21,484 nucleotides of DNA from positions 1 to 21,484 of IMG/VR virus record IMGVR_UViG_3300017767_000168; one strand, 5' to 3'. This DNA comes from a virus. Numbering within the stretch: the first letter of the stretch is position 1; each line of letters opens with the position of its first letter. The notes beneath the pieces are model-generated. The model had not been told where the DNA came from. It did not search any database and saw nothing but the letters and a program-made list of their open reading frames with translations. Shown in pieces: positions 2,512 through 20,994 of the stretch. The position numbers were made by a program, and so were the translations under genes.

Positions 2512-4068
2512 TTGGAAAAAGGGTTTTACGAAAAATCAACTATAGCGGATAAAGATAATCCGATTAATATTACTTATGATGAGTTACTGCACAAAAGTGA
2601 TTCTGAAGTAGATAGTTGGATTGATGAACTTCGTACATATGTGATTACACAATGGGACGAGTTCGGACAACCACCAGTCATTGGACAAAACGAAAAAGAT
2701 ATAATCAGTAATTGGAGAAAGTTATTTGGTTATGATGTTGAGAGTTTTCATGATGACAAATCAAATGTAATAAAGAATTTTAACAAACATGCTAGTGGTG
2801 TTAATCAATTCTTTCCAACAATGTTAAAAACAAAAATCAGTACAGGTGTTAATAGTGATAATGCAACATCTATATATGATCACTTCAAAGAAGATTCACT
2901 TAAAGACACATTTAAAAAGGCAATGTTAAGAGCTTTATATAAAGACTCTATGTATACATTTAGTTTGAGTGTTGTAAAATCTGAGATGGGGATGGGTGTT
3001 AGTGAGTTCTTACAAAATACAAATCAAAATGAAAAGTATGGTATCATGGTTGTACAACAACGAAGTGAGAATCCAGTAGACCCACTTTCTGAATATTTAA
3101 TATTAAAGAAAAGTGAAGTAGAAATGTATCTAACTACAGGTCGTTTAACAGAACAAAATCTTAGAACAATAGGTGGTGAGTTAGAAAGTAGTTATGAATT
3201 AAAAAATGGTGAACTGAGATATTACCATTATTATATTAGAAAGTATAAAAGAAAACAAAGAATTTTTCCAAGTGCACTTCAAGTATTTAGATTAGGACTT
3301 GGACAACCTGCAGTAAATTTTCCACCACTAACCGCTAAGTTCTTATATGAACATTTTACAAAACATATAAAGAACAATAAAGTTAATATATATGATCCGA
3401 GTAGTGGTTGGGGTGGAAGAATTTTAGGTGCTATGTGTACTGATAGAGATTTACATTATATTGGAACAGACCCTAATCCTGATAATGTTGGGATATACCA
3501 AAGGGTTGCAGAATTTTATAATCAAAAGTGTTTTCAAACTAATCCATTTTGGGGAAAAGAAAATGGTAACACTTATGAAATATTTACAGATGGTAGTGAA
3601 GAGATAGGTAATAATCCTAACTTTCAGAAGTATAAAGGAAAGTTAGATATGGTTTTTACATCACCACCATATTTTAATCGTGAACAATATTCTCAAGATG
3701 AGAATCAATCATTTAAGAAGTTCAGTGCATATGAGGATTGGAGAGATAACTTTCTTCGTCCTACATTAACTACTGCATTTGAATATTTAAATGAAGATAG
3801 ATATTTGTGTTGGAATATTGCAGACATCAAAGTTGGAGATAACAAGTACATCCCTTTAGAACAGGATAGTATTGATGTAGTAGAATCACTCGGTGGTGAA
3901 TACAAAGGTATTTACAAAATGTTAATGACTCGTATGGTAGGTATAGATGCAAGTCAAATCAAGAATTCAGTTATAGTAAAAAAACATCCTTTAAGTAGAG
4001 GTGGAGATTATTATAAATTTGAACCTATATTAATATTTTATAAACCAAGGACGCACGATGAAATTTAG
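2512..4068 (+). CDS. DNA methyltransferase, motif order I then IV
   Basis: The start is TTG at 2512 with AGGA upstream; no ATG is better placed. The 518-residue protein has an N-terminal region of about 250 residues with no motif I recognise. It is followed by an SAM-binding motif I, IYDPSSGWGGRILGA (Asp295), then YIGTDPN as the acidic end of strand 2, and the catalytic motif IV TSPPYF (Ser384-Pro-Pro-Tyr387). SPPY occurs in N4-cytosine and some N6-adenine DNA methyltransferases, so the target base is not determined. The I-to-IV order is that of the alpha or gamma arrangement. The N-terminal half may hold target recognition. Its stop overlaps the next gene, a GNAT-dioxygenase fusion, by 11 nt, suggesting coupled production. 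A role in protecting or modifying phage DNA is likely; no restriction partner is visible. Confidence 0.85.
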   Translation: MEKGFYEKSTIADKDNPINITYDELLHKSDSEVDSWIDELRTYVITQWDEFGQPPVIGQNEKDIISNWRKLFGYDVESFHDDKSNVIKNFNKHASGVNQFFPTMLKTKISTGVNSDNATSIYDHFKEDSLKDTFKKAMLRALYKDSMYTFSLSVVKSEMGMGVSEFLQNTNQNEKYGIMVVQQRSENPVDPLSEYLILKKSEVEMYLTTGRLTEQNLRTIGGELESSYELKNGELRYYHYYIRKYKRKQRIFPSALQVFRLGLGQPAVNFPPLTAKFLYEHFTKHIKNNKVNIYDPSSGWGGRILGAMCTDRDLHYIGTDPNPDNVGIYQRVAEFYNQKCFQTNPFWGKENGNTYEIFTDGSEEIGNNPNFQKYKGKLDMVFTSPPYFNREQYSQDENQSFKKFSAYEDWRDNFLRPTLTTAFEYLNEDRYLCWNIADIKVGDNKYIPLEQDSIDVVESLGGEYKGIYKMLMTRMVGIDASQIKNSVIVKKHPLSRGGDYYKFEPILIFYKPRTHDEI

Positions 4069-7932: not shown

Positions 7933-8205
7933 TTACTTACTTCCAAAGATTTTAGAGAAGAAACCTTTCTTACTCTTTTTACCTTTTTTAGCTCCAATCT
8001 TTTTACCTTTCTTCCTTTTCTTCTTGACATCTTCCATAGCATATAATTCTAACTCAGAATTAATAACCATTTTACTCTGGCCTGAATTATGATCAAATAT
8101 GACAGATTGTCTATTCATATCATTCATAGCTTCGATATCAGTTTTAGTTCCTTGACTTATAGATACAGACAAGAAGAAAATTAGAGATATTAGTATTGTC
8201 TTCAT
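7933..8205 (-). CDS. Secreted lysine-rich small protein
   Basis: The 90-residue product is read on the minus strand. Its start is preceded by GGAG (revcomp of 8213-8216), with 7 nt to the ATG. A Sec signal peptide is evident: MKTILISLIFFLSVSISQG, a basic start, a hydrophobic core and a small-residue cleavage region. The mature part has a mixed polar segment (residues 20-58) and then an extremely basic tail of about 30 residues with repeated KKxKK / KKGKK units, ending GFFSKIFGSK. The C-terminal ten residues look like a short amphipathic cationic helix, as in membrane-active peptides. I do not recognise the family. It could bind LPS, peptidoglycan or DNA outside the cytoplasm, or help lysis. 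It shares the minus-strand island with a holin-like protein. Confidence 0.75.
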   Translation of the reverse strand: MKTILISLIFFLSVSISQGTKTDIEAMNDMNRQSVIFDHNSGQSKMVINSELELYAMEDVKKKRKKGKKIGAKKGKKSKKGFFSKIFGSK

Positions 8206-11233: not shown

Positions 11234-11653
11234 ATGGCAGATAGTGTAACCGAAATAGACAATAATCCAGATGCATATGTTGGGTTATCTTTTCCCCTTG
11301 GATATAGTAATCAAGGATTTTTTAGACAAACAAAAAAACTAAATGAACAAGTTAAGTCTAATCTAAGAAATCTTTTATTAACATCTAAAGGTGAACGAGT
11401 TATGCAACCAACATTTGGTTCCGATTTACAAGATTTATTATTCGAACAAATAACAGATAATTTAGATGAAAAGATTGAACAAACAATAACAGAGGCAATT
11501 GAACAATGGTTACCATATGTACTTATTAATAATATATTTGTAGTACAGAGTGATGCGAATCCAAATGAAGTTCAAGTACAACTTGAATTCTCAATAACAA
11601 CTGAACCTGATCAGTTAGATCAAATAACATTTAATTTTGCACTTGGAGATTAA
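11234..11653 (+). CDS. 25: Baseplate wedge protein gp25
   Basis: This 139-residue protein has AGGA before the ATG, close to the T4 gp25 size (132 aa). The family pattern is clear: an N-terminal SFPLGYSNQGFF segment, a helix VKSNLRNLLLTSKGERVMQP with the conserved TSKGERVMQPTFGSDLQDLLFE, then a helix with an IEQTITEAIEQWLPYV core, and terminal strands (EVQVQLEFSITTEP). gp25 is a wedge component with a lysozyme-like fold without activity, shared with type VI secretion TssE; it anchors the sheath at the baseplate. It directly precedes gp6, the usual order. Confidence 0.92.
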   Translation: MADSVTEIDNNPDAYVGLSFPLGYSNQGFFRQTKKLNEQVKSNLRNLLLTSKGERVMQPTFGSDLQDLLFEQITDNLDEKIEQTITEAIEQWLPYVLINNIFVVQSDANPNEVQVQLEFSITTEPDQLDQITFNFALGD

Positions 11654-11656
11654 GAT

Positions 11657-13642
11657 ATGCCACAAGCAAATCCAGACTACGGCACAAATAAAAAAATTAT
11701 ACAAAAAGAAGTAAACTATCTTGGTAGAGATTTTAATGATATAAGACAAAATCTTATTGAGTTTGCAAAATCATATTTCCCAAATACATTTAACGATTTC
11801 AATGAAACAGATCCTGGTATGATGTTTATTGAAATGGCCTCTTATGTTGGTGATGTATTGAATTACTATGTAGATAATCAATTCAGAGAAACATTAATTT
11901 TACAGGCAGAAGAACGAAAGAATATATTTGATATTGCTCAGTCAATGGGATATAAACCAAGTCTTTCATCACCTGCACATACAAAACTAACCTTAACAAT
12001 GGAAGTACCTGCAGTACTTAATTCAGACAATGAAACTTATTCACCTAATTTATCTTATGCAGGAATAGTTAGTGGTGATAGTATTGTTACTTCGAATAGT
12101 GGAGTACAATTTACAATATCAGATTCAGTTAACTTTAAAGTATCGAGTTCACTTGATCCTATGTTAATTGAAATGGTTACACCAGCAAGTGGTACTGATC
12201 CAGAAACATTTAAATTGACTAAGTATGCATTGTGTAAATCAGGAACAAGAGAATCTGAAACCTTTACATTTAATAGTGCAAAGAAATTTGATAAAGTAAT
12301 TATAAGTAATGAGGATGTAACAGAGATTATTTCTATAACAGATAGTGATGGAAATAAATGGTATAATGTTCCTTATTTAGCTCAAGATACCGTATATGAA
12401 GATGAAGAAAATGTAAGTCTTAATGATCCTGATTTAGCAGAATTCTCAAATGACACACCTTACTTATTAAAGTTAATTAAAACACCAAGACGATTTACAA
12501 CTTATGTTCGTGGTGTTGATAACAAAACAGAAGTAAGATTTGGTAGTGGTGTTAGTGGAAATGCAGATGAGGAGATTGTACCTAATCCAGATAATGTTGG
12601 TTCATCACTTTCAACAGGACTTACGAAATTAGATTCAACCTTTGACCCAAGTAATTTTTTAAACACAAGAACATTTGGATTGGCACCACAAAATACTACA
12701 CTAACTATAAAATATAATTATGGTGGTAGTGTTGAACATAATGTTAGAAGTAATTCAATTACAAATGGAAGTGATTTAACATTCACAATAAATTCAGAGG
12801 GATTAGATACTACTTTAGTTGGAGATGCCGAGAAGAGTTTAACAATTACAAACGAGTCTTCAGCAACAGGTGGTTCTTCAGAAGAGACTATAGAAGAAAT
12901 TAGACAAAATGCATCTGCATATTTCAATGCACAAGGAAGAGCAGTTACACAAAGAGATTACATTTCAAGAGTTTATTCATTACCACAAAAGTATGGTAAC
13001 ATTGCAAAATGTCATTTAGTACAAGATGAACAATTAGAACAAAATACTCAAACCGTTATCAAGAATGGTAAAATTAAAAAACAAAAAAATGTTAGTATAA
13101 TACCAAATCCATTAGCATTAAATTTATACACACTTGGATACGATGATTCTGGAAAACTTTGTTCTTTAAATAGAGCAGTAAAACAAAATTTAAAAACTTA
13201 CCTATCACAATATAGAATGGTAACAGATGGTATTAATCTAAAAGATGCATATACAATTAATATTAATATACGATTCTCAATAATCACAAGAAGAAATTTT
13301 AATAAAAATGATGTATTGTTTAGAGCAATACAAAATGTTAAAAAACATTTCGATATTAAAAAGTGGCAAATCAATCAACCAATTGTGTTGAGTGATATTG
13401 CATATGTACTATCATTAACAGATGGTGTGGCAAGTGTTGTTCCACCAACTGATAATAATGAATCAAAACAAATTGTTGTAATAGAAAATAAACATAGTAT
13501 AACTGATGGATATAGTGGTAACATTTATGATTTACAATCAGCAGTTAAAGATGGTGTTATTTATCCATCATTAGACCCAAGTATCTTTGAGTTGAAGTAC
13601 CCTGATACCGATATTGAGGGTAGAGTAGTAGGAGACTTTTAA
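11657..13642 (+). CDS. 6: Baseplate wedge protein gp6
   Basis: This 661-residue protein starts 3 nt after gp25 with GGAG as the ribosome binding site. T4 gp6 is 660 aa. The N-terminal LGRDFNDIRQNLIEFAKSYF and FNETDPGMMFIEMASYVGDV stretches are the typical gp6/gpJ-type start. The middle carries beta-rich domains with an RFTTYVRGVDNKTEVRFGSG strand. The ETIEEIRQNASAYFNAQGRA segment followed by VTQRDYISRVYSLPQKYG is the gp6/gpJ core-bundle signature. The C-terminal region has the ININIRFSI / WQINQPIVLSDIAYVLSLTDGV elements. The protein dimerises to form the iris ring of the baseplate. Its stop overlaps the next ATG (TAATG at 13640-13644). Confidence 0.92.
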   Translation: MPQANPDYGTNKKIIQKEVNYLGRDFNDIRQNLIEFAKSYFPNTFNDFNETDPGMMFIEMASYVGDVLNYYVDNQFRETLILQAEERKNIFDIAQSMGYKPSLSSPAHTKLTLTMEVPAVLNSDNETYSPNLSYAGIVSGDSIVTSNSGVQFTISDSVNFKVSSSLDPMLIEMVTPASGTDPETFKLTKYALCKSGTRESETFTFNSAKKFDKVIISNEDVTEIISITDSDGNKWYNVPYLAQDTVYEDEENVSLNDPDLAEFSNDTPYLLKLIKTPRRFTTYVRGVDNKTEVRFGSGVSGNADEEIVPNPDNVGSSLSTGLTKLDSTFDPSNFLNTRTFGLAPQNTTLTIKYNYGGSVEHNVRSNSITNGSDLTFTINSEGLDTTLVGDAEKSLTITNESSATGGSSEETIEEIRQNASAYFNAQGRAVTQRDYISRVYSLPQKYGNIAKCHLVQDEQLEQNTQTVIKNGKIKKQKNVSIIPNPLALNLYTLGYDDSGKLCSLNRAVKQNLKTYLSQYRMVTDGINLKDAYTININIRFSIITRRNFNKNDVLFRAIQNVKKHFDIKKWQINQPIVLSDIAYVLSLTDGVASVVPPTDNNESKQIVVIENKHSITDGYSGNIYDLQSAVKDGVIYPSLDPSIFELKYPDTDIEGRVVGDF

Positions 13643-14814
13643 TGCATTATTTTGAATTTGGAAAACGAGATACAACACTTTATTCTGGTGGAGTCACTGC
13701 ATCAATTAATACAGGATTTGATGAAATATTAGAATTAAAAAAAGAAGTTAATAGTGATGGTACTCTTGTAAATTCTTCAAGAATATTAATTGATTTTGAT
13801 AATACATATATTTCAGAATCTATACAAAATGGTAAGATACCATCAACTGCAAAATTTTATTTAAATTTATATGATGCAACTTCGTTAGAAGTTGAGGCAG
13901 AACAAAAATTATGGTGTTATATGATAAGTGGTAGTTGGAAAGCTGGAACAGGTAAACTTGATCATAATCCAGTAACAGAAGATGGAGCAAGTTGGAAATA
14001 CCGAGATACTGAAAACTCTGCATCATCTGCATGGGTAACTGGTTCAATATTAACAGATGGTGGATCATGGTTTACTGGATCAAATGGACAATACAATATT
14101 AGTGCTTCATACGATATTTCATTTGATAAAAAAGATTTAAGATTTGATGTAACTGATTTAGTTAATAATCAAATTCATTCAAGTTCAGTTTATCCAAATA
14201 ATGGATTTATTGTTAAACGAGAAGCATCAGGTTCCCACCCATCAACATTTAATTTTAGTGGTGATGTAAATTCAGATGAGGGTGGCCCAAAAAGATTAGG
14301 GTACTTAAAATATTTCTCAAGAGAAACACATACAATCTACCCACCTAAATTAGAAGTAGTATGGGACGATTCAAAATGGCAAACTGGTAGTTTAACACCA
14401 TTGACAGGTTCTTCACTTGAAGATAGTTTAATTTATATGAGAGGTATTCGTTCTAAATATAATGAAAAATCAGTATCAAGGTTTAGAGTCTATGGTAGAC
14501 AAAGATATGTACAAAGAGCATTTAATACAACACCTGAAGAATTAACCGTAAATTATTTACCAAGTGCATCTACTTTCTATTCAGTTAGAGATGCAGATAC
14601 AGAAGAAGTAATTGTACCATTTGGTACAGGTTCTAAAGTTGGTTGTGATTCAACTGGTAATTACTTTGACTTTAATATGAATGGATTACAAGCAGAAAGG
14701 TTTTATAGATTCGTATTTAAAGTTGTAAGTGGTAGTGGAACTACAAACGAATTAACAAATTATTATGAAGATGAAGACTGGTCATTTAGAGTAGTCCGAA
14801 ATGTTGGGGGATAG
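13642..14814 (+). CDS. Beta-rich virion protein downstream of gp6 (390 aa)
   Basis: The ATG overlaps the gp6 stop, with GTAGGAG upstream. The protein opens MHYFEFGKRDTTLYSGGVTA. It continues with strands such as SRILIDFDNTYI and TAKFYLNLYDA, which resemble the jelly-roll type domains of marine phage appendages. Trp-rich segments (GSWKAGTGKLDHNP, GASWKYRDT, DGGSWFTGSNGQYN) look like repeated loops. A second beta domain covers about 265-390 (RFRVYGRQRYVQRAF ... FYRFVFKVVSGS ... WSFRVVRNVGG). It occupies the gp7/gp8 position but is not recognisably similar to either from sequence alone. I infer a baseplate wedge or fibre-attachment protein. Confidence 0.75.
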   Translation: MHYFEFGKRDTTLYSGGVTASINTGFDEILELKKEVNSDGTLVNSSRILIDFDNTYISESIQNGKIPSTAKFYLNLYDATSLEVEAEQKLWCYMISGSWKAGTGKLDHNPVTEDGASWKYRDTENSASSAWVTGSILTDGGSWFTGSNGQYNISASYDISFDKKDLRFDVTDLVNNQIHSSSVYPNNGFIVKREASGSHPSTFNFSGDVNSDEGGPKRLGYLKYFSRETHTIYPPKLEVVWDDSKWQTGSLTPLTGSSLEDSLIYMRGIRSKYNEKSVSRFRVYGRQRYVQRAFNTTPEELTVNYLPSASTFYSVRDADTEEVIVPFGTGSKVGCDSTGNYFDFNMNGLQAERFYRFVFKVVSGSGTTNELTNYYEDEDWSFRVVRNVGG

Positions 14815-14817
14815 GAA

Positions 14818-15168
14818 ATGCCATATACACTTGGTGAGGCAAAGAAAAAATCATCACATTACAATAAAATAATTGATGCAGAAAGAATAGAACAAACAGA
14901 GATTATTGATGACTTACTTAATAAGGCATCTATATCTGGTTCTATTGATGCAAATACAGAATTAAGAAATGAAAATGGACACTTAGTGTCATTTGAGGAT
15001 CCTGATAATCCTGGTATGGCAGACGAAAGAACATTTGAATATGTAAGGTTACAAAATACACAAAAGTTTTTCAATAGTAATAAATTTAAAGATTTAAAAG
15101 ATTTAAAAGTCAATGGTGGATTTTCTGAATTCATCCGTAGTAACTATGATGAGGTTTACAAAAAATAA
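14818..15168 (+). CDS. Small helical baseplate-region protein (116 aa)
   Basis: TAGGA precedes the ATG, 3 nt after the previous stop. The 116-residue protein is mostly helical and charged. It opens PYTLGEAKKKSSHYNKIIDA, has an IEQTEIIDDLLNKASISGSI helix and a central DPDNPGMADERTFEYVRLQN stretch, and ends GGFSEFIRSNYDEVYKK. A short tandem repeat of GATTTAAAA (15090-15107) encodes KDLKDLK. It is coupled to the giant gene through a TAATG overlap. I do not recognise it. Operon position suggests an assembly partner of the 1626-residue protein. Confidence 0.7.
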   Translation: MPYTLGEAKKKSSHYNKIIDAERIEQTEIIDDLLNKASISGSIDANTELRNENGHLVSFEDPDNPGMADERTFEYVRLQNTQKFFNSNKFKDLKDLKVNGGFSEFIRSNYDEVYKK

Positions 15169-18100
15169 TGGCCAATATAGGATTCACAAAAAAAGAAAAA
15201 GAATTCTTTTTTAAGGAAAAGAATGTATATAGTAGTTTCGGTAGAGATTCTAAAGATTACATCATGCTCCATATTTATGATTTAGATGGTGAATTAATAG
15301 AGAGTGAAGCTTTTGGAAATGGTGAAGTAGGTAACATTACTGAAAATTATGTTGATTTAAATATAGGACAACAACTAAGAGATTTAGGTTATAGTAAAGG
15401 TACTTATAAAATAACATATAAATTTTTAAGAAAATTGGCAGGTAAAGAGGGTGAAGTATTTGTTAATGGTGAGGGTGCTATCTATGTTGGTAAAGTTCAA
15501 GTAAAAGTTATTAATGGTGAAACAAGATATTTTAGAACTATAGATAAATCAAGTACAGGAACTCAAGCAAAAGATAATAACCAAGTAGACGAACTATATC
15601 CAAGAAATTTAAAATATTTTATTGATAAGATTTCAGATGATAGAACAGAGGTTATAGTTTCAACACAAGACTTTAAGAATAAAACATACTTCAAAAATTT
15701 TACAGAGATGGGGAAATATATAAAGTACCAATCATTAAAAGGTGCAGGACAATTTGGTAAAGTAAAATTTGATGAAAATGATCCATACATATTAGAATTT
15801 CCAATCAATCCACGAGACAGAGGATTTACACAAAATATGGTTGGTGGTGAAATAGTTATACCAAGTCTTTATCAAGTAACACCAACTGAAGAAAAAATTA
15901 TTAAAGAATTTGTGGAAAGAGATGTAGAAACTACCAATCAAAGACCACCACTACCTAAACAACCTTTTGATGAAAAAGATCCACCAGCTCAGAAATATGC
16001 GGAAAAAGAACCTATTCCTGATATGGAAGAGTATAATAAAAAAGAAGAAGAATATATTGAACAACAAGATAATTATCGTGATGACTTCGATAGTGTTTGT
16101 TTCGTAGGTAGTACAAGAATAAAATTAAGTAATGGTAGACAAGTTCCAATTAAATCTTTACGAATAGGAATGAAAGTTAGAACTACACAAGGTACTGCAA
16201 GAATTAAAAAGGTATTAAAAACAGATAAGGGGTATGGTGGTAGATTATCTAAATTTGGTTCATTGGTTACTACAGATGGCCATCCAATAAAACATAAAGG
16301 AAGATGGTATAAGGCAGATGAAATTGGAAAACCATTTATGTCAAAACCACTTGTAGTTTATAACTTAGTACTTGAAAGACATCATACAATTTATGCAAAC
16401 AATGTAGTTGCAGCAACAGATGGTAAATGGAAATCTCTAAGTCACTTTGAAATGTGGAGAGATACAAAATTTAACATGGCAAGAGAAGCATATGACGATA
16501 GTGGAGAACAATCAGGTGGTGGTACTGCCGGAGGTGGTCAAAGTTATAGTCCCCCACCAATTGCAAATGAAGAAATCGTAGAACCTGAAGATACTTCAAC
16601 AAGAACAAACGATGAACTTATCGATGATTTAATCTATCAGGCAAAGATAGGAAAAAACCTTGATGAAACTGATGAAACTTGGGATGATTTACCACAACAA
16701 GAAAAGAAAGAATTAATTAAAACTATTGTTGTAACACTTCCAACCGTATTTCTTGATTATAAGGCAACTATTGTTGAAGTATTAGATAATAACCGTATTC
16801 GCGTAAATAAGTCCTATAATGATGGTGTAAACGAGACTGGACACGATGGGGGTGATGATAGTAAGCTAGAACACTTGCAATGGTATGTCCAATATTTAAA
16901 AACAAATTTATATAGATTTAAAACTTATATGGTTATTAATGATGATTATTATTTGATTATAAATCAAAATGATAATTTTTGTAAAAGTGTTGAAGAACGA
17001 GAAACAAAGAAAGTTCTTAAATTAAAACAACCACTAAAAGATACGGTTGATGAATTAGATAAAGTCTATTTTGTAGAAAAAAGATTAGAAGATTATGAAG
17101 ATACAATTGCAGTTGTACCTTTTGTTGACGAAGACCCTGTCGCATTATTTTTAGAATTACCAAATTTAAATTCAGTAGATAATCCAATTAATTTTAAGGG
17201 AACTGATTTTAAAACACATAATCAATTATTAGGTGATGATAAACAAGTCAATGAAGATATAGAAAGAGAATTGGTTTCTGGTAGTTTATTGAATGTTCAA
17301 GTGAATATTGATTACCAAAAAAGAACAACAGACTTGGAAGAATATAATGATGTAGGATTTGGAAACTTTGTTAACTTCAGTTCTGCAAAGGCAAGATTAA
17401 GAAACTTTAAAAGAAAATTAGAATTAATTGAGGGTTATAGTGCAACAAGTCAATCTTTACTAAATGTGACAAGTTCATTATCGACAATACAGACAAATGA
17501 ATCTAAAAGAACACGAGTAATAAATTCTTTTGATCCATATGAACATTATTTATATTTTGAAAGTTCATCTTATGTAAGTTCATCAGAGGGACAATTCCAT
17601 GATACATCATGGCCAAAAGAAACAACATCTAAACCTTATAGATTAACTCACACTACTTCATCAACTACTTGGTACGATACAATGTATGAAAGTGCTTCTC
17701 TTTATGATAGAATGAATAGAGATACTTTAAGTAATAATATTCCAAAGCATGTAACAAGTGATACCGAGAATAATGTTTTTATAGAATTTGTTGATATGGT
17801 AGGACAACAATTTGATGAAGTGTGGACTTATACAAAACACTTTACTGATGTAAATCAAAAAGTAGAAAATGTATCAGAGGGTATATCAAAAGATATTGCA
17901 TCATATTATGCGAAGTCTCTTGGTTTAGAATTAGTTAATGGGAATGATTTATTAATATTACCAGAATATCTATTAGGTAAAAATGCAGATGGTAGTACTA
18001 AATATGAATCATCACAAGAGGCAGTTACTGAAGAGATATGGAAAAGAATATTAGGTAGTTTACCATTTTTCTTAAAATCAAAAGGAACTATAAGAGCATT

Positions 18101-20048
18101 AAAAGGATTATTAAATTGTTATGGTATACCAAGTTCAATATTACGAGTAAGAGAATATGGAGGGCCTGATAAAGGAACACGAGTAAGTTATGAAGTAAAG
18201 AGGAAGTTTACCTATGCATTAGATTTCCATTCTTCACAATACATTACATCCAATTGGTTAACAGATACTGCAACGAGTAGAGTTCCTGATACGGTAGAAT
18301 TTAGATTTAGAACACCTAAGTCTCAAGATATGGTTGTGGTACAAAAAGGAGCCAAATGGGCTATACAATTACAAGATAATGGTTCCACAGACAATTATGG
18401 ATATTTAAGATTTGCAGTTAGTGCTTCTACAGGAGTACAATATATTACATCATCACTACAACCATTTTATAATGATGAGATGTGGAGTGTAATGTTATCA
18501 AGAGTAAGTGCAAGTGATGGTAGTGTATTACCGAGTGATGATATTTTACAGAATGTTAAATATGAATTAGTTGCAAAACAATATGATGGTAGTCAAGAAA
18601 AAATAAAATTTGAAACAAGTGAAAGTTTAACCACAGGTATTGCAGCTGCAGGTAATGCAGTTAATGCAGCATTTACATCAAGTGAACTATTATACCTCGG
18701 TGGTAATGGTAGTAATTGGGGAACACAATATAGTGGTTCCATGATGGAGTTTAGATTATGGAGTGAACCATTAAGTCAAAGTGTATTTGATAATCATGTT
18801 AGAGCACCAAAGAGTTATAATGGTAATAGTATAAGTTCATCATATGAAAACTTTGTATTGAGATTACCATTGGATGAAAATGTTAATTTAAATTCATCAC
18901 CACAAATTACCAATAAGGCGTTTCCTGGTACTTACAATGCATCAGGTAGTGCGGCAAGTTATACTAAAAATGATTATAGAAGTTTAGTAGATTTAGAACA
19001 ATTAAAAGTTCCTAACTTTGGTCCGTCACGAAGAAATGCAACAAAGATTAGAATTGAAGATCATAAGTTAACTGGACAATTATCACCTGATGTACGAAGA
19101 GAAAAGTCTTCACAAGATTTTGCACCAATAGATAGTGAAAAGGTAGGTATTTACTTCTCACCAGTTGATGTGGTGAATGAAGATATAATGTATTCATTAG
19201 CAGATTTTAACTTTGATGATGAAATAGGTGACCCAAGAGATGAATACAAATATCATTATAGAGGATTAAGAGGAACTGCAAGAAATTATTGGAAAAAATA
19301 TAGTTCCCCAAATAACTTTTTTGACTATCTAAGAATATTAAGTTTCTATGACGCGGGAGTATTTACACAAACAAAGGCATTGATACCTGCGAGAGCAAAA
19401 GCATCGGTTGGTATATTAATTGAACCAAATATATTACAGAGAAATAAAGAAGTAATAGGTAAAGAACCTGAGTTTGATAATCAATATTATGAAAACGCAA
19501 ATGAATTTGAAGAGGGTTTAAATGTATTAAGATTTGTTAGTGGTTCTAAAGATGATGCATTTTTTGATATTTCATCAACTTATGATACTTATAATAGTGA
19601 ACTAAATTTACACCATGAGGAATCTGGTTCATTGGGTTCATTAGGTAAACCAACATTAGTAAAAATAGGTCAGATAGATAAAAAGACAGAGTATAATACA
19701 TTATATGCAACTGCAAGTGTTACATTAGGTTCAGATGGACAATTTTTTAGTGAATCAATACAACCGAATATTAATTCATCAAGATTGTCAGAACATAACG
19801 AAGAAAAAGAATTTTTTTATAGTTCGAGTTTAAGTGCATCACTACATAAACCATATAGTGCTTCATTTAAACCATCGGAATATCAAAGTATGTCATATGA
19901 TACACAATTATTTAGAGTATTTGTACAAGGTTCACTACTAACTATAGAGAACACAATAGACTCAAGAGAACCAGTAGAAGTTAATGTAACAACACCAACC
20001 ACATTAATAACACAAGAACCTGGTGAATCAAAACTTAAAGTAAAATAA
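15168..20048 (+). CDS. Giant baseplate-region structural protein with Hint and LamG-like domains (1626 aa)
   Basis: The ATG overlaps the previous stop. Residues 1-240 are beta-rich (DYIMLHIYDLDGELIESEAF, LRDLGYSKGTYKITYKFLRK), a pattern shared by large virion proteins of marine T4-like phages. A Pro/Glu-rich linker (about 250-310) leads to an intein-like Hint domain (311-419; separate entry), then a Gly-rich linker (447-463). Residues about 955-1005 hold IWKRILGSLPFFLKSKGTIR and ALKGLLNCYGIPSS, resembling P2 gpI-like baseplate segments. About 1012-1245 form a concanavalin/LamG-like domain with YSGSMMEFRLWSEPLSQSVF and a closing FVLRLPLDE strand. The final 380 residues are Ser/Asn-rich beta structure. 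It is larger than any T4 baseplate protein (gp7 is 1032 aa) and lies where gp7-gp10 would be. The LamG part may bind glycans. Confidence 0.85.
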   Translation: MANIGFTKKEKEFFFKEKNVYSSFGRDSKDYIMLHIYDLDGELIESEAFGNGEVGNITENYVDLNIGQQLRDLGYSKGTYKITYKFLRKLAGKEGEVFVNGEGAIYVGKVQVKVINGETRYFRTIDKSSTGTQAKDNNQVDELYPRNLKYFIDKISDDRTEVIVSTQDFKNKTYFKNFTEMGKYIKYQSLKGAGQFGKVKFDENDPYILEFPINPRDRGFTQNMVGGEIVIPSLYQVTPTEEKIIKEFVERDVETTNQRPPLPKQPFDEKDPPAQKYAEKEPIPDMEEYNKKEEEYIEQQDNYRDDFDSVCFVGSTRIKLSNGRQVPIKSLRIGMKVRTTQGTARIKKVLKTDKGYGGRLSKFGSLVTTDGHPIKHKGRWYKADEIGKPFMSKPLVVYNLVLERHHTIYANNVVAATDGKWKSLSHFEMWRDTKFNMAREAYDDSGEQSGGGTAGGGQSYSPPPIANEEIVEPEDTSTRTNDELIDDLIYQAKIGKNLDETDETWDDLPQQEKKELIKTIVVTLPTVFLDYKATIVEVLDNNRIRVNKSYNDGVNETGHDGGDDSKLEHLQWYVQYLKTNLYRFKTYMVINDDYYLIINQNDNFCKSVEERETKKVLKLKQPLKDTVDELDKVYFVEKRLEDYEDTIAVVPFVDEDPVALFLELPNLNSVDNPINFKGTDFKTHNQLLGDDKQVNEDIERELVSGSLLNVQVNIDYQKRTTDLEEYNDVGFGNFVNFSSAKARLRNFKRKLELIEGYSATSQSLLNVTSSLSTIQTNESKRTRVINSFDPYEHYLYFESSSYVSSSEGQFHDTSWPKETTSKPYRLTHTTSSTTWYDTMYESASLYDRMNRDTLSNNIPKHVTSDTENNVFIEFVDMVGQQFDEVWTYTKHFTDVNQKVENVSEGISKDIASYYAKSLGLELVNGNDLLILPEYLLGKNADGSTKYESSQEAVTEEIWKRILGSLPFFLKSKGTIRALKGLLNCYGIPSSILRVREYGGPDKGTRVSYEVKRKFTYALDFHSSQYITSNWLTDTATSRVPDTVEFRFRTPKSQDMVVVQKGAKWAIQLQDNGSTDNYGYLRFAVSASTGVQYITSSLQPFYNDEMWSVMLSRVSASDGSVLPSDDILQNVKYELVAKQYDGSQEKIKFETSESLTTGIAAAGNAVNAAFTSSELLYLGGNGSNWGTQYSGSMMEFRLWSEPLSQSVFDNHVRAPKSYNGNSISSSYENFVLRLPLDENVNLNSSPQITNKAFPGTYNASGSAASYTKNDYRSLVDLEQLKVPNFGPSRRNATKIRIEDHKLTGQLSPDVRREKSSQDFAPIDSEKVGIYFSPVDVVNEDIMYSLADFNFDDEIGDPRDEYKYHYRGLRGTARNYWKKYSSPNNFFDYLRILSFYDAGVFTQTKALIPARAKASVGILIEPNILQRNKEVIGKEPEFDNQYYENANEFEEGLNVLRFVSGSKDDAFFDISSTYDTYNSELNLHHEESGSLGSLGKPTLVKIGQIDKKTEYNTLYATASVTLGSDGQFFSESIQPNINSSRLSEHNEEKEFFYSSSLSASLHKPYSASFKPSEYQSMSYDTQLFRVFVQGSLLTIENTIDSREPVEVNVTTPTTLITQEPGESKLKVK
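16098..16424 (+). other. Intein-like Hint domain inside the giant virion protein
   Basis: The domain is residues 311-419 of the host protein. Block A starts at Cys311 (CFVGSTRIKLSNGRQVPIKS), with LRIGMKVRT as the next strand. Block B is TTDGH with the T-x-x-H pair Thr369/His372. The C-terminal block is YNLVLERHHTIYANNVVAAT, with His405/His406. At about 109 residues it is a minimal domain with no homing endonuclease. The terminal His-Asn plus Cys/Ser/Thr needed for standard splicing is missing: VVAATDG replaces the usual VVHN. N-terminal thioester chemistry at Cys311 may still work, giving cleavage or ligation to a nucleophile, as in hedgehog or bacterial intein-like domains. Flexible linkers flank it on both sides. 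Confidence 0.8.
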
Positions 20049-20121: not shown

Positions 20122-20994
20122 ATGAATAAAAAATCAGTAATATGGAAATCTGATAGTAGGATAAAAATGGGATTTTTAGATAATACAAGTATTACGGTTG
20201 ATGCAGTACTTACCAAAAAGGGTAGGGAATTACTCGCAAGAGGACAGAATGAATTTCAAATAACAAAGTTTGCATTAGCAGATGATGAAGTTGATTATGA
20301 ATTGTGGGACACTGCACATCCAAATGGTTCGAATTATTATGGATCAGTAATTGAAAATATGCCATTATTAGAATCTTTCGTAGATGAAAATCAAGTAATG
20401 AGATATAAGTTAGTTAGTTTACCAAAACAAACTGCTAAGTTACCAATCGTAGAAATTGGAACATCAGTCGTAAGTTTGGCATCACCTGGAGTGAGTCAAG
20501 TATTAACACCAGTCACAAGAAATGGTGGTGGTGACGATGAGTTAGGATATACTTTTATTCTACATAATGCAGAAATTGCAACATTAACCCCAGTCGCACA
20601 AAGTGGTAAAACCAAAAAGAGTAAAAAGAAATTCTTTAAAGGTGTTGGTAATTTGGGAACTAAGGGTAATGAAGAGATAATTAGAGATATTGCAATGTTG
20701 GCAGGACAAGGTGGTGGAGCTGGAGCAGCTGCAGGTGCATACTTGGAACAAATACAAGACTCTAATAAACAGGCAGATTTAAATGATATGAGTTTTGAAG
20801 ATGGTGCAACAACTACCGTATTCTTGAATGACGAGGAACAGAAAAAGTCTACTACTTTAACTGGAAAATCTATAAAATTAATTGCTCGTTCAATTAACTC
20901 TACAACAACAACTAATGTAACTATTATTGGAAATGGTAGTGGTGCTACCGTTAATATACCAGTAACCGTTAACCAAGACCCAAGTAAAGCGTAA
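20122..20994 (+). CDS. Virion structural protein starting near MGFLDNTSITVDAVLTKKG
   Basis: The start is set at ATG 20122, because ACAGGAG lies 7 nt upstream (290 aa). An in-frame ATG at 20167 with AGGA upstream gives MGFLDNTSITVDAVLTKKGR, which is how I remember similar marine-phage proteins starting, so the true N-terminus is open. The first 120 residues are the recognisable part (ELLARGQNEFQITKFALADD, then YYGSVIENMPLLESF). The middle carries a Lys-rich KTKKSKKKFFKGVGNLGTKG segment and a Gly/Ala-rich GQGGGAGAAAGAYL stretch. The C-terminus is Thr/Asn-rich beta structure (TGKSIKLIARSINSTTTTNV). No enzyme motif is seen. I infer a baseplate or tail-fibre-connector component. Confidence 0.75.
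   Translation: MNKKSVIWKSDSRIKMGFLDNTSITVDAVLTKKGRELLARGQNEFQITKFALADDEVDYELWDTAHPNGSNYYGSVIENMPLLESFVDENQVMRYKLVSLPKQTAKLPIVEIGTSVVSLASPGVSQVLTPVTRNGGGDDELGYTFILHNAEIATLTPVAQSGKTKKSKKKFFKGVGNLGTKGNEEIIRDIAMLAGQGGGAGAAAGAYLEQIQDSNKQADLNDMSFEDGATTTVFLNDEEQKKSTTLTGKSIKLIARSINSTTTTNVTIIGNGSGATVNIPVTVNQDPSKA

Follow-up and report, generated by a model that had tools for sequence, protein, structure and literature searches.

A Vint-type Hint domain, a relative of the self-cutting part of Hedgehog proteins, lies in the middle of a 1,626-residue chain encoded by an uncultured marine virus, at exactly the point that separates two tail-region genes in sister viruses; the domain therefore probably splits this chain, once made, into the two corresponding proteins. 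The most probable course of events is an N–S acyl shift followed by hydrolysis at the Val310–Cys311 bond, separating one chain into two structural proteins. The domain is carried by a group of marine bacterial viruses that have not been cultured, and the stretch of DNA analysed here, referred to throughout as the window, is a complete virus record of 21,484 bases. A domain of the Vint type, a family described from eukaryotes, is thereby placed in the morphogenesis of marine phages, and closely related viruses appear to use either a self-processing domain or a gene boundary, interchangeably, at one and the same locus.

The open reading frame (ORF) that carries the domain (15168–20048, plus strand, as are the parts and neighbouring genes described in this and the next paragraph) comprises, according to the ORF list and its homologues, an N domain, a linker, the Hint domain, a second linker and a core. 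The N domain (residues 1–255; 15168–15932) is followed by a variable Pro/Glu-rich linker (residues 256–310; 15933–16097) that ends in Val310 at position −1. The Hint domain (residues 311–421; 16098–16430) opens with Cys311 (Cys1 of the domain; codon TGT, 16098–16100), the predicted nucleophile, and the predicted cut lies immediately N-terminal to it. A TxxH motif (T369-D-G-H372; 16272–16283) follows, and the C-terminal strand (H405-H-T-I-Y-A-N-N-V-V-A-A-T417) contains both the His405–His406 pair (16380–16385) and Ala416–Thr417 (16413–16418), which stand at the position of the His-Asn of inteins. Behind the domain come a helix with a conserved M-x-R (Met437) and a Gly-rich linker (together 16431–16559), and then the C-terminal conserved part (residues ~530–1430; 16755–19457), which includes a LamG-like domain. 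The linkers rich in Pro and Glu before the domain (residues ~256–310) and in Gly after it (from residue ~449) are as the first-pass annotation of this sequence had described them.

That annotation had also called the host a baseplate protein, a label that comes from the neighbouring genes and not from any hit of its own. Baseplate wedge genes of gp25-like and gp6-like type lie at 11234–13642 (PF04965, E = 8.5e-18; phrog_261 and phrog_219); the 1,626-residue chain itself had no family match to a known baseplate protein and no sequence match in the PDB. A fold search with an AlphaFold2 model of the core returned only the LamG-like part, and the model of the N domain was of low confidence. One contig of a Hint-bearing relative carries a T4-type portal gene. 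An upstream 390-residue ORF (13642–14814), an upstream 116-residue ORF (14818–15168) and a downstream 290-residue ORF (20122–20994) served as synteny anchors.

By sequence and by fold, residues 311–421 are a Vint-type Hint domain. They match Pfam Vint (PF14623) with E = 1.5e-19 and 70.9 bits against a cut-off of 27, far beyond chance, with the match located at 16095–16418, and 14 of 14 aligned relatives match the same model. The Hint region of the AlphaFold2 model had block pLDDT values of mostly 89–96, and Foldseek recognized the HINT fold, retrieving Tetrahymena BIL2, the Tetrahymena Vint structure 8r2c (E = 7.7e-8, rmsd 2.2 Å over 118 columns), inteins, a Clostridium BIL domain and Hedgehog; 8r2c was also found by sequence profile (E = 1.4e-6). 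The first-pass annotation had thus placed a Hint domain with Cys311, T-x-x-H and a C-terminal strand correctly at 16098–16424. The Hedgehog model (Pfam Hint, PF01079) scored 14.9 bits, below its cut-off of 29.7. Because a Pfam search of the 1,626-residue protein gave no VWA match, we class the domain as Vint-type and do not equate its gene with the Vint genes described from eukaryotes. No sequence relative of the domain was present in 50,697 records of cultured phages, and a pattern scan of GTDB genomes yielded none.

Scans of uncultured viral contigs recovered 71 Hint loci, representing 31 distinct domain sequences, in which the presumptive active site was invariant. Cys1, the Thr and His of TxxH, and the HH pair were kept in 31/31; loss of Cys311 in homologues retaining the domain, which the first-pass annotation had named as an outcome that would refute its reading, was thus not observed. 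The residue preceding Cys1 was Val in 29 of the 30 domains of equal length. One lineage differs in domain length, by a single residue, and the linkers on either side vary freely and could not be aligned. Pairwise dN/dS was ~0.25 in the Hint domain, 0.41 in the N domain and core, and 0.81 and 0.88 in the linkers (the latter value upstream of Cys1); these estimates come from distinct rows only and, with dS near 1 and close to saturation, the absolute values are rough and we use their ranking, in which the Hint domain is the most strongly constrained stretch of the N half. Purifying selection maintains the domain. In one locus, L123, a frameshift just before the Hint domain (3804–3873) puts the N part and the Hint–core part in different frames; the locus was left out of the analysis, as the frameshift may reflect either a misassembly or a genuine interruption.

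The C-terminal end of the domain distinguishes it from inteins. The first-pass annotation had described an intein-like domain lacking the terminal His-Asn; that pair is indeed absent and a Hint domain is present, but the intein framing did not survive, since the domain belongs to the Vint type and Hint domains that cut only N-terminally, such as the Hedgehog-type and B-type BIL domains, normally end in this way. At the His-Asn position, 30 of 31 distinct domains have Ala-Thr and one has Ala-Ser, a conservation that marks the pair as a family trait and not as decay. That the domain is a standard or degenerate intein, which splices or formerly spliced, is extremely improbable, even though it shares the HINT fold and inteins appear among the Foldseek matches: His-Asn occurs in none of the relatives, the intein model PF14890 (Intein_splicing) matched nowhere in the window, a domain of ~110 residues holds no endonuclease insert, and Hint-less relatives show a stop/start junction, extra genes or unrelated linkers in place of a precise empty site. 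The earlier view that this is no typical parasitic intein was sound.

Cleavage at the N-terminal side would follow the chemistry of related domains. In Hedgehog proteins, a thioester forms between Cys1 and the residue before it, a step that requires both Thr and His of the TXXH motif, and the Hint part by itself, lacking the sterol-recognition region, cleaves its N-terminal junction by hydrolysis (PMC4695875); B-type BIL domains, which lack the C-terminal splice motif, still cleave N-terminally (PMC7765530). The phage domain has the corresponding set of features: Cys1, TxxH, no His-Asn and no recognized ligand-binding domain behind the Hint fold. We propose that, once folded, Cys311 would attack the preceding peptide bond in an N–S acyl shift aided by T369 and H372, so that Val310 and Cys311 would become linked by a thioester. 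Its hydrolysis, with water as the presumed acceptor, would release a 310-residue N-terminal protein and a 1,316-residue protein with the Hint domain at its head, and both products would presumably enter the virion. As there is no C-terminal Asn, neither splicing nor an intein-type C-terminal cut is expected. The domain would thereby take over, after translation, the role of the ordinary stop/start junction of sister phages, and it offers a compact domain for predicted N-terminal cleavage that is unable to splice.

Comparison with known systems showed partial likeness to each. Vint is the best-matching sequence family, with both profile and fold matches to 8r2c and no intein C-terminal motifs in the phage domain. 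Vint domains are known from VWA–Vwaint–Vint proteins of eukaryotes (PMC2362128), whereas the phage domain is embedded mid-way in a structural chain without VWA or Vwaint, and most phage members match only about positions 1–112 of the 166-position model. The Hedgehog Hog domain likewise has Cys1, TxxH and no C-terminal His-Asn, and an N-terminal thioester cut is expected of both; however, the phage Hint domain is not at the end of its chain, and its PF01079 score is below cut-off. A family-level search gave no match behind the Hint domain, where Hedgehog has its sterol-recognition region and the phage protein a variable Gly-rich linker. B-type BIL domains have intein motifs minus the C-terminal one and autocleave N-terminally (PMC7765530); the phage domain shares this set of motifs and, like them, lies in a variable region of its host protein, but Pfam places it in Vint. 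The pattern scan, moreover, gave it no relative in a bacterial genome. In the BUBL loci of ciliates, ubiquitin-like domains are separated by BIL domains. There too, Hint-fold domains lie between protein units of one chain, and these were the top Foldseek match (6tmm, 6y75); unlike the phage domain, BIL2 retains a C-terminal Asn (the structure title gives N143A), and the units are ubiquitin-like repeats and not a two-gene junction. Hint-fold proteins of other phages in BFVD (for example, A0A6J5KSY2 and A0A8S5UY86) share the fold only, at 9–26% identity. Because the fold already occurs in other phage proteins, the novelty lies not in finding a Hint domain in a phage but in the arrangement, in which a processing domain stands in for a gene boundary; the open-licence papers searched contained no example of it.

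The strongest indication of what the domain does came from the organization of the same genes in relatives. A scan with the core gave more than 560 relatives, and the 80 closest of these (a selection whose frequencies are not population values) showed three architectures: a single ORF with N domain, Hint domain and core (H); an N-domain ORF with the core in the next ORF (S); and N domain and core in a single ORF without Hint (F). All three share a gene order of 390-residue ORF, 116-residue ORF (where detected), N domain, Hint domain if present, core and 290-residue ORF. Searches with tblastn located the N domain in its own ORF in split contigs, with 41–51% identity in the closest. Among the 27 S contigs nearest the window, the downstream ORF often overlaps the stop codon of the first by one base, and otherwise starts a few bases later or follows an extra gene; S architectures are also present in other, more distant clades. 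Counted from one shared motif that closes the N domain, the distance to Cys1 is 73–103 residues (mean 90) and that to the stop codon of S contigs 67–94 residues (mean 84), so that a cut at Val310–Cys311 would yield a protein ending where the separate gene ends. The first-pass suggestion of cleavage into parts of about 310 and 1,316 residues is therefore the best reading, both parts being separate genes in sister phages. The locus also opens to direct testing a route for gene fusion or fission through an intermediate whose two proteins would already be separate chains.

Relatives with fused, Hint-less chains complicate this picture. They occur inside the split clade (L049, L053 and L064) and among phages further removed, some of them cultured phages of Flavobacterium and Microcystis, indicating that separate chains are not always required. 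Together with the many unrelated inserts that the junction accepts, they would fit a catalytically silent Hint domain acting as a folded spacer within one continuous structural chain. We nevertheless consider this unlikely, as a spacer leaves unexplained the invariance of Cys1, TxxH and HH amid linkers that cannot be aligned, the conservation of Val at −1 and the coincidence of the domain with the gene boundary. A further alternative is that the C-terminal protein is also made by internal initiation at Met437, with the fused chain a minor or read-through form. The Met-x-Arg there is nearly invariant and similar to Met-Ala-Arg, with which the separate gene begins; yet a Shine–Dalgarno match of at least 4 nt was present upstream at 0 of 64 Hint loci, compared with 20 of 39 downstream-gene starts and 47 of 68 ORF starts, and no conserved DNA motif precedes Met437, making this option highly improbable.

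The first-pass annotation had offered a virion crosslink through an ester or thioester as an alternative to cleavage, for which we found no support. In its broader form, the proposal is that a nucleophile other than water resolves the thioester, joining the C terminus of the 310-residue protein covalently to a neighbouring virion protein (through an amine) or to a small ligand, as a crosslink or a Hedgehog-like modification; if true, the Hint domain would build a covalent joint in the phage particle. The active site would be the same as for hydrolysis, and cholesterol is the acceptor in Hedgehog (PMC4695875). What follows the phage domain, however, is only the variable Gly-rich linker and no ligand-recognition domain, and the N protein of sister phages simply ends at a stop codon, so that no Hint-made attachment is needed there. 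We judge such a joint quite unlikely and retain hydrolytic separation of the chain as the probable outcome.

Phylogenies indicated that the Hint and split states have replaced each other among close relatives. In the core tree, the window and three other H contigs (L174, L166 and L168) grouped with the S clade at a node with support of 100/99, apart from 25 other H rows, and a single clade of all H rows was rejected (p-AU = 0.0014; 0.0088 with fewer rows), from which it follows that the two states are interchangeable over short distances. The N-domain tree also placed the window with S, but a single H clade was not rejected there (p-AU = 0.19). The Hint tree was incongruent with the core tree: in it, the window and L174 joined the L111/L046 lineage (98/96), and one clade of the window, L174 and L166 was not rejected (p-AU = 0.064). 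Taken by itself, the core tree points to a Hint form older than the split form, with which the Hint tree disagrees. Plain vertical descent of the Hint domain with later loss in the split clade, suggested by the core tree, is at odds with the grouping in the Hint tree, and the N-domain tree admits a single Hint clade, so that neither order of events was adopted; the domain may have moved between lineages by recombination. Whichever tree is followed, Hint-bearing and stop/start junctions substitute for one another at a single site.

The junction between the N and core genes looks like an insertion hot spot, accepting varied inserts that include linkers and extra genes. Small ORFs (~150–165 residues) lie between the N and C genes in two split contigs (L032, 4584–5036; L098, 6989–7480); by eye they are nucleotidyltransferase-like ('VWLCGGFLDDDKSTDVDIILTNEP'), and a Pfam search gave no convincing match. 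In another split group, a basic, proline-rich ORF of 280–330 residues occupies the same junction (L038, 6382–7239; L043, 6412–7242; L045, 6268–7272). The separate C proteins of four further contigs (L040, L041, L048 and L050) begin with proline-rich leaders of up to ~600 residues before the conserved core.

Several other ORFs of the window were noted. A 90-residue ORF at 7933–8205, on the minus strand opposite to its neighbours, has a start resembling a signal peptide and an end very rich in Lys, and had no Pfam match. Two N6/N4 DNA methyltransferase-like ORFs (PF01555; 2512–4068 and 6180–6905) occur within this one 21-kb fragment, and the C-terminal part of an ORF at 4058–5392 matches aspartyl/asparaginyl beta-hydroxylase (PF05118, E = 1.8e-9), whereas its N-terminal part gave no family assignment. 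At 1125–1893, an APS kinase-like ORF (PF01583, E = 1.2e-15) overlaps a cytidylyltransferase-like ORF (PF01467, E = 2.6e-5).
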